In this document: piece by piece, positions 45,042-47,720 of the stretch
How positions within the stretch are numbered: position 1 is the stretch's first letter
How the letters are laid out: each line of letters begins with the position of its first letter
Origin: an uncultured Gammaproteobacteria bacterium
GTDB taxonomy: Bacteria; Pseudomonadota; Gammaproteobacteria; Enterobacterales; Psychrobiaceae
Direction: 5' to 3'
Length of the DNA: 64,000 bases
Assembly: GCA_913060565.1 (NCBI GenBank)
Contig: CAJXRU010000003.1
Coordinates: 1 to 64,000 of the forward strand
Notes under the pieces: generated by a model
Databases searched by the model: none
What the model saw: only the letters and a program-made list of their open reading frames with translations
What the model was told of the DNA's origin: nothing
Program-made: the position numbers and the translations under genes

Positions 45042-45066
45042 AAAAAAGGGGACATTAAAGTCCCCC
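45042..45066 (-). terminator. terminator of the ECF/anti-sigma/PDZ operon
   Basis: On the minus strand, GGGGAC pairs with GTCCCC around a 6-nt loop and is followed by six T residues, 20 nt after the PDZ gene stop. Confidence 0.85.
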
Positions 45067-45087: not shown

Positions 45088-46548
45088 CTATTCCCACACT
45101 GGCAACGGAACTGCGTCTGGGCGAAATTTTCTGCTTTTTTCTACTTCATCTTTGCGCTCTTTCCATATTTTAAATTCCTTATACTTTTTAAACAGCTTTA
45201 TTGCGCGCTCCTTTGAGGAGAAATTTATTGTAAATTTATACTCAGGTAATACATTACGAGCTAACTTACTAGTCAATAATATCTCACTATTTTCACGTTT
45301 AACTAAGAATGTAAAAACTTCATTATTTTTTAATTGATTTAGTTTATTAGACAAACTCCTTACGTCCCCTTGAAATCCAATATCATTAAGTTGAATAATT
45401 TTATCTCCTGGCTCTAAGCCAATCCTAGAAGCGGGACTATTCTTGTCAATCTGCTCAACTATAAATGCTGGATAACTATCATTATTATCAAAATTTCCAC
45501 TCATTCCGAACTTGATATCAGAATGCTTCTTTCTAGATATAACAATATTTTTTCTATCAATCCCATGTTTTAAAATATATTGATTAATTTCAATGATAAG
45601 TTTACTTAACTTGACCGACATATCAGTACCAATAGCAACGTGTTGTACTAATGTTTGTTTAGCAAGGTTTTCATTTGAAAACGTATAAATAAACTCAGGT
45701 ATAATTTCCGGTATATAAATTCCTGAAAGAGCTATTTCACGCCCATCTCGTTTAATAAGTACATTCAAAGAATCATTTATTTCTAATGTTTTTAGATATT
45801 TAAATATAAAATTAGATTCTAAATCTGTATCAGGTAAATATCTATTTCCTAATTTCAATAATTCGTCACCAGCCCTAAGTCCTAGTGCGGCGGCCTGAGA
45901 GTTCGGCGTAACAGCAACGATCTTAGTAGGTTTATCATATGCGCCTGTTATGGCGCCAAAATACATCACGCTTGTAAATGGTACAAAATTTATTTTTGTG
46001 TCTCTATTTTCTTTTTTTAACTCAGCCATCGCTTTATCCAATCGATATAACAGTTCATTTGGAAGTTGAATATCATTGATTGTTGGGCTTCCGGCTATAG
46101 CTAGTTTATCACCTTTAAGGTTACAACTAAGTTTTTCAACACTCTTGATTTCTATTTTGTTCCCATTACCGACTCCATTCAGCGTATATAGTCTGCCTCC
46201 TTCGATGTTCATAAATAAATCGATGGCTTGAGGCTCATTCCACGATAAAGCTCTTGTGGTCGTATGTAGCGTTTCAATTCGATTCAACTTATTAAGAGTA
46301 TGAGTTCTTGAATAATTAGCCCAATCCTTAGCGAGCCATTTAAATATCGTGACCGTGTGTTGTCCTGGATGAAAGAACTCACTTGACTTTTTATATTGTT
46401 TAATATTACCAACATTATTCGCCAAAACTTGATAGTGATAATGATCATTTGAAGATTCAAACTGAACTTGCGAGCATTGATTTTCTCCCCCTTGAACTTG
46501 CAAACTAAATAAAGATGCTAAGAAACCAATTTTATAAATAACTTTCAT
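45088..46548 (-). CDS. secreted double-PDZ protein
   Basis: This 486-residue exported protein has a signal peptide (KVIYKIGFLASLFSLQVQGG) and two PDZ-like domains (about 190-275 around IVAVTPNSQAAALGLRAGDELLKLG, and 355-435 around VEQIDKNSPASRIGLEPGDK). No protease domain is apparent. The first ~180 residues carry two Cys that could form a disulphide. ATG at 46548 has an ideal AGGGAG site. The start overlaps the anti-sigma gene by 17 bp, so it is the third gene of that operon. PDZ domains usually bind C-termini; here they may present or sense misfolded envelope proteins. Confidence 0.78.
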   Translation of the reverse strand: MKVIYKIGFLASLFSLQVQGGENQCSQVQFESSNDHYHYQVLANNVGNIKQYKKSSEFFHPGQHTVTIFKWLAKDWANYSRTHTLNKLNRIETLHTTTRALSWNEPQAIDLFMNIEGGRLYTLNGVGNGNKIEIKSVEKLSCNLKGDKLAIAGSPTINDIQLPNELLYRLDKAMAELKKENRDTKINFVPFTSVMYFGAITGAYDKPTKIVAVTPNSQAAALGLRAGDELLKLGNRYLPDTDLESNFIFKYLKTLEINDSLNVLIKRDGREIALSGIYIPEIIPEFIYTFSNENLAKQTLVQHVAIGTDMSVKLSKLIIEINQYILKHGIDRKNIVISRKKHSDIKFGMSGNFDNNDSYPAFIVEQIDKNSPASRIGLEPGDKIIQLNDIGFQGDVRSLSNKLNQLKNNEVFTFLVKRENSEILLTSKLARNVLPEYKFTINFSSKERAIKLFKKYKEFKIWKERKDEVEKSRKFRPDAVPLPVWE

Positions 46549-47050
46549 TTGTAACTCCCTGTTGTAAATCAATAATTTTTTGTATTGTCAAGCGACGCTG
46601 TTTCAAGTAATTCTTTTGCTTGTCAATTGACTCGACTGAAATTAACTTATTTTCGATACGCCAAAGCTCTTCATAAACTTCAGCTTGTTGATAATTCATC
46701 ACTTGATTTTGCGTTATTTGCAATTCTAACGACCTGTTTTGCGAAATCAGTAAATCTATATCCTGATGTAATAAGTGAGTTTTCCATGTCATTATTCCTA
46801 CAAAACCGACAAGAATAGATGCAGCAACACTCATAAAAACATTAATTTTTTTGCTTCCGTTACCTTTTCTCGTTGATTCAATTCGCTCCCAAATATAAGG
46901 AGGAGGTATAAGTAACTGACTAGAGTTCTTGCTATTAGCCATACTTTGCAACAGTTCAAGGTTTTCTTGACAAAGTTGACACTCATTTAAGTGCTTCCTA
47001 TCGTCATCACAAATACCACTTATCATTTTTTCTTCATCAACATGATTCAT
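46532..47050 (-). CDS. zinc-finger anti-sigma factor
   Basis: This 172-residue single-span membrane protein starts 14 bp inside the sigma-factor gene. The N-terminus has HLNECQLCQ, an H-x3-C-x2-C pattern of ZAS (zinc anti-sigma) domains. A transmembrane helix lies at about 74-92. The C-terminal half is a periplasmic coiled coil (DIDLLISQNRSLELQITQNQ). It probably binds and inhibits the ECF sigma factor and senses an envelope signal through its coiled coil. Confidence 0.83.
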   Translation of the reverse strand: MNHVDEEKMISGICDDDRKHLNECQLCQENLELLQSMANSKNSSQLLIPPPYIWERIESTRKGNGSKKINVFMSVAASILVGFVGIMTWKTHLLHQDIDLLISQNRSLELQITQNQVMNYQQAEVYEELWRIENKLISVESIDKQKNYLKQRRLTIQKIIDLQQGVTNESYL

Positions 47051-47561
47051 GACTTTTCTCCAATGTGAGCCTCAACTTTTTAAGGCATCTAGAAACAATA
47101 GATTTAGAGTAACTTTCACTTTTATTCATAAAATGGGATATTTCTACATGCGAATATTCTTCGATAATAAATAACCAAATCACAATGCGGTGCTCGACAG
47201 GTAAAGATGCAAGCAAAACTTCTAACTTATCTGACTCATCAGTTAATTCCTTTGCTACACAATCAAACTGAGTGTGCGAATCTACAATGTCAAACTTGTG
47301 GCGTTTGACATAATTAAGTGCTTTATTAATTGCAATTTTTTTACTCCATGCCACGAAATTTGCGGTGATATCTAATTTTGATACTGCATCAAATATTTGA
47401 ATAAAAGTGTCATGCAATAAATCGTTAGCGATCTCTCTATCACGACAAATTTTTACAAGCGCCGTATAAATTATTGGCGAGAGAGATATATAACAAGCTT
47501 CTTGTGCCGCTTTGTCACCTGCTTTTAATTTTTTAATTAATCGCTCATCAATATTAATCAA
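47037..47561 (-). CDS. ECF-type RNA polymerase sigma factor
   Basis: This 174-residue sigma70-family factor has region 2 (REIANDLLHDTFIQIFDAV, then FVAWSKKIAINKALNYVKRH) and region 4 (LPVEHRIVIWLFIIEEYSHVEISHFMNKSESYSKSIVSRCLKKLR). It lacks region 3, as ECF factors do. Overlap with the anti-sigma gene supports joint control. The operon likely regulates itself; a promoter should lie in 47562-47683. Confidence 0.92.
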   Translation of the reverse strand: MINIDERLIKKLKAGDKAAQEACYISLSPIIYTALVKICRDREIANDLLHDTFIQIFDAVSKLDITANFVAWSKKIAINKALNYVKRHKFDIVDSHTQFDCVAKELTDESDKLEVLLASLPVEHRIVIWLFIIEEYSHVEISHFMNKSESYSKSIVSRCLKKLRLTLEKSHESC

Positions 47562-47683
47562 TTTCCTTTCCTATGAATTCGATCCCTATATATATAACAA
47601 CCGAGAGTACCAATTCGTCGCATTATTTTGGAATAAACTTAGAAATATTCCGTTGTAAACATTAAAGCATTGAATTTAAAAGA

Positions 47684-47720
47684 TAAAAAAAGCCCGTTTG
47701 ATTTTCACCAAACGGGCTTT
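47684..47720 (-). terminator. terminator after the DUF6702 gene
   Basis: AAAGCCCGTTTG and its complement flank an 8-nt loop. On the minus strand a T-run follows. It terminates the aminopeptidase/DUF6702 operon before the ECF sigma operon. Confidence 0.9.

Follow-up and report, generated by a model that had tools for sequence, protein, structure and literature searches.

The operon and its predicted products

In the 64,000-nucleotide stretch of DNA analyzed here (the window), three genes form one predicted transcription unit at 47561–45088 on the minus strand, which also carries all other features given below. The first gene (47037..47561) starts with TTG and encodes an ECF sigma factor of 174 aa, recognized by Pfam and TIGR02937; the second (46532..47050) encodes an anti-sigma factor of 172 aa, assigned by its position, an HLNECQLC motif, and its AlphaFold model; and the third (45088..46548) encodes an exported double-PDZ protein of 486 aa without a protease domain, assigned by Pfam, AlphaFold, and structure matches. 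A likely ribosome-binding site of the sigma gene, AGGAAAGG, lies at 47565..47572. The sigma and anti-sigma genes overlap by 14 bp and the anti-sigma and PDZ genes by 17 bp (46532–46548), with the PDZ gene running from an ATG at 46548 to a stop ending at 45088; an alternative, longer TTG start is possible at 46572. A terminator-like hairpin of 7 pairs, 5 of them GC, with a T run follows the PDZ gene (45047..45066), and a second one, which belongs to the upstream gene and consists of a 14-pair stem and a T run (47689..47720), sets the cassette apart from DUF6702/M1. The open reading frames lie where a preliminary description had placed an overlapping sigma/anti-sigma/double-PDZ operon, and the genes sit in one apparent promoter-to-terminator unit, consistent with the co-transcription assumed there. 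Moreover, since the same gene order is found again in relatives, the three-gene arrangement is more than chance.

For the sigma factor, Pfam matches Sigma70_r2 (7e-10) and Sigma70_r4 (9e-7), and TIGR02937 scores 61.6 bits against a cut-off of 42.9, which with regions 2 and 4 both present identifies an ECF sigma factor. Identity with RpoE of the sigma-E system was rejected at 41.2 bits for TIGR02939 against a cut-off of 236. Similarly, the anti-sigma factor is not RseA, as RseA_N (PF03872) is unmatched in it, and a separate RseA_N match lies elsewhere in the same genome, at C8; a standard RpoE system is excluded by the curated-model scores together with this separate RseA.

The anti-sigma factor matches no Pfam family, and no viral relatives of it were confirmed. 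Its AlphaFold model (pLDDT 81) shows cytoplasmic helices and a long helix, residues 71–112, that passes through the membrane and extends about 20 residues outside, followed by a helical hairpin (120–138/142–169) and a free tail, so that the modelled periplasmic part comes to about 79 residues in all. The long periplasmic coiled coil proposed earlier is thus borne out only in part. An HxxxCxxC motif in the cytoplasmic domain is characteristic of zinc-binding (ZAS) anti-sigma factors; it occurs in the window protein (HLNECQLC), in 15/24 of the related three-gene sets (triads) described below, and in 6/15 further operons.

The PDZ protein matches PDZ_6, PDZ_2, and PDZ of Pfam in two stretches, and no peptidase family is found in it by Pfam. 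Its AlphaFold model, based on 16 sequences (mean pLDDT 78, pTM 0.73), consists of a signal region, an N-terminal beta domain, two helix-plus-PDZ units, and a C-terminal helix. The beta domain, seen as strands at about residues 25–142 (46123..46476), contains Cys25, which is invariant among the 16 sequences, and Cys142, which is nearly so. PDZ1 spans about residues 190–285 (45694..45981) according to the model and the Pfam stretches, and PDZ2 about residues 334–430 (45259..45549) according to the model and a Z score of 14.1 to the DegS PDZ domain; an x-F-G-phi loop is retained in both. The closest solved folds are the PDZ domains of DegS, HtrA, AlgW, and DegP, with Z scores up to 14.1 over residues 347–433. 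A hidden protease was considered and rejected: the DegS model covers residues 349–425 only, at 26.4 bits against a cut-off of 423, and the top Foldseek hits, DegQ and DegP, reach TM-scores of about 0.2 over the whole model, with the match falling on PDZ2. An RseB/MucB-type co-regulator was likewise rejected, as the third gene has PDZ families only and no MucB_RseB domain. The absence of a protease domain by both Pfam and AlphaFold therefore bears out the earlier reading of an exported double-PDZ protein without protease.

Relatives, promoter, and exchange of the cassette

When named genomes were scanned with the sigma alignment, 79 loci were retained. Those closest to the window belong to Colwellia, Thalassotalea, Psychrosphaera, Paraglaciecola, and MAGs, and one of these close loci, L026, comes from a record titled Flavobacteriaceae. 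The triad set comprises 24 anti-sigma genes, including those of the window and its genus-mates. An initial order-level search with a single protein gave 4/295 matches; with 16 PDZ proteins as queries, a second search of the order hit 49/394 genomes at 1e-12, a number that is not a prevalence because it includes generic HtrA matches. Among the 26 loci read from the latter search (L112–L137), 9 encode trypsin-PDZ proteases, L129 reads like a Do-type protease, and L116 is apparently cut by a contig end; in all of the remaining loci (15/15), a related sigma gene adjoins the protease-free PDZ gene. The PDZ part precedes the beta domain in 14 of those 15, and the beta domain of the window protein is homologous to the C-terminal domain of these permuted proteins (hhalign 96%, E 4.5e-9; controls 0.4%). 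Across the class, an alignment of five rows used at E 1e-20 retrieved only the window's own genome (1/369).

The overlaps vary among these relatives. Because 6/24 triads are without the anti-sigma/PDZ overlap, and in most of the 15 further operons the genes show a gap or a contact of 1–4 bp, the argument that the overlaps fix the stoichiometry is weak.

Several loci differ in their surroundings. Some genomes carry two triads. In L012, L021, L023, L025, and L112, the cassette stands immediately 5′ of rpsJ of the ribosomal protein operon, and L012 and L025 have it as a tandem pair. In one triad, a DUF3016 protein (L011:6848-7357) separates the anti-sigma and PDZ genes, and a lipoprotein-like gene comes thereafter. 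In two Nevskiales-type MAGs (L043:7127-8155 and L064:7138-8121), a different PDZ protein lies beside the sigma/anti-sigma pair, and the tails end in LEL.

A putative operon promoter with ECF-type −35 and −10 elements, TGCGAC-N16-TTGTT, lies at 47596..47622 and follows a conserved pattern. The strict pattern occurs upstream of 13/23 triad sigma genes, relaxed forms of it occur upstream of 16/23 and 18/23, and in 499,710 nt of triad-bearing records (both strands counted) the strict pattern is absent elsewhere. In the window's own genome, the strict pattern has 4 matches and a reversed control has 6, which leaves the site of the operon itself as the one credible match; the other three sites lie inside predicted ORFs, and a wider regulon was rejected. 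From the promoter pattern, we infer that the sigma factor would transcribe its own operon (autoregulation), with the PDZ protein as its main output.

Comparison with a genus-mate (G152, locus L013) reveals flanks with 80–98% DNA identity in most 100-nt pieces, with one intergenic piece at 73%. Between 45017 and 47416, the identity falls to 37–71%, with sharp edges, one of which is within the sigma gene. As judged from these alignments, most of the operon has undergone allelic exchange. Moreover, two genomes have an empty site (G041 and G125; L140 and L141), where the DUF6702 and HEAT-repeat genes adjoin without the cassette. The window's own genome also holds a decayed second copy (L099:4785-6590), in which the sigma factor has lost about 66 residues from its N-terminus and a frameshift interrupts the PDZ gene; the anti-sigma frame is still open.

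The anti-sigma C-terminus and the split covariation

The anti-sigma factor ends in NESYL-COOH (46535..46549), a candidate PDZ ligand with a conserved Ile/Leu ending; the model places this tail as coil after the last helix, with three residues at low confidence. All triad anti-sigma factors end in Ile or Leu (24/24, compared with 15/121 background ORFs), and so do 35/39 related anti-sigma factors when the 15 further operons, 11 of whose anti-sigma factors end in Ile, are added to the 24 triads. The exceptions are the short PDZ-linked anti-sigma factors of L126, L128, L132, and L135, which end in EE, RP, SK, and TQ; these four rule out a universal tail and show that the arrangement can do without it. 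In 18/24 triads, the tail codons are or may be overlapped by the start of the PDZ gene, which there determines, or could determine, part of the tail sequence. Nevertheless, the non-overlapping triads still end in Ile or Leu in 6/6 cases, and the same ending is found in 13/13 anti-sigma factors that are mutually less than 40% identical and whose genes have an overlap of at most 1 nt.

The ending extends further. In distant, mostly Bacteroidota loci, 41/59 post-sigma genes end in Ile or Leu compared with 68/456 in the background, and 13/20 do so among distant loci without overlap. A protease-free PDZ gene was observed in hardly any of those operons; the tail is thus not private to PDZ operons, and it may be read there by a housekeeping PDZ protein. 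L091 (3182-4972) and other Bacteroidota loci like it encode an M28 peptidase that carries a PDZ domain at its C-terminus. Its gene lies upstream of a related sigma/anti-sigma pair, at a distance of about 1 kb, and this protein is possibly the reader of the Ile/Leu-ending anti-sigma factor in those loci. Judging by this distribution, the tail probably predates the PDZ-triad family, which may have come to employ it together with a PDZ protein of its own.

Covariation was assessed from pairwise identities by Mantel and rank correlations in 19 double-PDZ triads, using MAFFT alignments and keeping uncertain starts. The cytoplasmic half of the anti-sigma factor correlates with the sigma factor at rho 0.56, a value reached in 0/2000 permutations, and with the PDZ protein at rho 0.19 (238/2000). 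For the periplasmic half, with the tail omitted, rho is 0.70 with the PDZ protein (0/2000) and 0.32 with the sigma factor (65/2000), and the two halves of the anti-sigma factor correlate with each other at 0.19. The crossover falls in the membrane helix. When close pairs are dropped, the correlations with the PDZ protein are 0.68 for the periplasmic half and 0.13 for the cytoplasmic half; in subsamples, the periplasmic excess with the PDZ protein is kept in 500/500 and the cytoplasmic excess with the sigma factor in 423/500. DNA distance alone fails to explain such a break within one gene, and a recombination hotspot there could. Collectively, the covariation supports a functional tie of the anti-sigma factor, through its periplasmic half, to the PDZ protein. 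The preliminary description had offered two roles for the PDZ protein, guarding the anti-sigma factor or acting as a chaperone under sigma control; the covariation lends support to a tie with the anti-sigma factor and the conserved promoter to control by the sigma factor, so that this interpretation is partly supported.

A proposed protease-free envelope-sensing module

In the sigma-E scheme, as outlined in PMC8103513, the PDZ domain of DegS reads OMP C-termini and RseB acts on RseA. The E. coli RpoE-RseA-RseB system with DegS and RseP resembles the window operon in combining an ECF sigma factor, a single-pass anti-sigma factor, and a periplasmic third product in one operon, and in the share that PDZ domains have in sensing C-termini, again as described in PMC8103513. 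In contrast, the window sigma factor scores below the RpoE cut-off, its anti-sigma factor has no RseA_N, and its third protein is a PDZ protein instead of MucB/RseB and has no protease. The earlier comparison with DegS and RseB consequently stands as an analogy only, because the genome has a separate RseA and separate DegS-like proteases. The PDZ tandems of HtrA, DegP, DegQ, DegS, and RseP share the PDZ fold and provide the closest structures for residues 347–433, but the window protein is without a trypsin or metalloprotease domain, has an extra beta domain, and is encoded with a sigma/anti-sigma pair. Bacteroidota ECF sigma/anti-sigma pairs with a downstream gene for a conserved protein of about 350 aa are alike in containing the closest sigma factors outside the family and in anti-sigma layout and Ile/Leu tails; however, their downstream gene does not encode the PDZ protein, and some have an M28 peptidase-PDZ gene upstream (L091). 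Among the titles and abstract openings searched, no paper describing the arrangement of a sigma factor, an anti-sigma factor, and a protease-free PDZ protein was found.

The operon, its promoter, the linkage, the split covariation, and the tail conservation were established computationally. We give about an even chance to a self-contained envelope-sensing module in which the PDZ protein reads the anti-sigma factor and the sigma factor closes a feedback loop. The cytoplasmic half of the single-pass anti-sigma factor would hold the sigma factor, and the PDZ protein would read the periplasmic half, that is, stalk, helical hairpin, and C-terminal tail, by binding to it, with its groove probably taking the hydrophobic C-terminus as ligand. 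Clients, presumably exposed hydrophobic C-termini or unfolded envelope proteins, would occupy the PDZ protein, shift the state of the anti-sigma factor, and thereby free the sigma factor, which would then transcribe its own operon and raise the amount of PDZ protein. As for the direction of control, the free PDZ protein would stabilize, not destabilize, the anti-sigma factor.

A purely downstream role is unlikely, yet it deserves weight: the PDZ protein might act in the periplasm as a chaperone or in quality control, produced under the sigma factor but taking no part in sensing, and housekeeping DegS-like, RseP, or Prc proteases would read the tail and cleave the anti-sigma factor. The DegS-like proteases of this genome, the frequent Ile/Leu endings of distant anti-sigma factors without such a PDZ partner, and a promoter that places the PDZ gene among the sigma targets all agree with it. 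However, the periplasmic half covaries far more closely with the PDZ protein than with its own cytoplasmic half (0.70 versus 0.19), which is unexpected for a mere output, and the linkage in 15/15 loci also argues against it. More doubtful is an adaptor role, in which the client-bound PDZ protein would hand the anti-sigma factor to a protease and so act as a positive regulator. PDZ repeats bind C-termini and could hold both substrate and enzyme, and the same covariation and tail results fit; nevertheless, no protease gene is constant across the operons, and positive autoregulation through an activator would require another off-switch.

Recombination might also produce the two blocks without contact between the anti-sigma factor and the PDZ protein, if cassettes swapped parts with a breakpoint hotspot in the membrane-helix codons. 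Cassettes do exchange, as the sharp boundary against the genus-mate and the empty sites indicate. However, without a functional link there is no explanation for why breakpoints would fall in the membrane helix rather than at the junction of the anti-sigma and PDZ genes, and the single boundary directly observed breaks within the sigma gene instead; we consider this account very improbable. In the most likely reading, the PDZ protein serves the anti-sigma factor as its partner in the periplasm and is at the same time the main product of the sigma factor.

More tentatively, and with somewhat less confidence than for the sensing module itself, the triads may represent a protease-free sensing class of autonomous, horizontally exchanged modules, in which the anti-sigma factor would be chimeric, with the membrane helix linking a half for transcription to a half for sensing, and would be gated by a PDZ protein that holds its hydrophobic C-terminus. 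If so, genomes with two or more modules would have parallel sensors with differing client specificities. The predicted contact, the anti-sigma C-terminus in the PDZ groove, is simple and testable, and the naturally divergent sigma/anti-sigma/PDZ sets would be usable for orthogonal circuits. The PDZ domains that detect misfolded C-termini in the sigma-E paradigm belong to proteases, whereas here, throughout an order of bacteria, linkage and covariation connect a protease-free PDZ protein with the periplasmic half of an anti-sigma factor. The co-divergence of the PDZ protein with the outer half of the anti-sigma factor suggests an undescribed way of sensing envelope trouble in marine bacteria.
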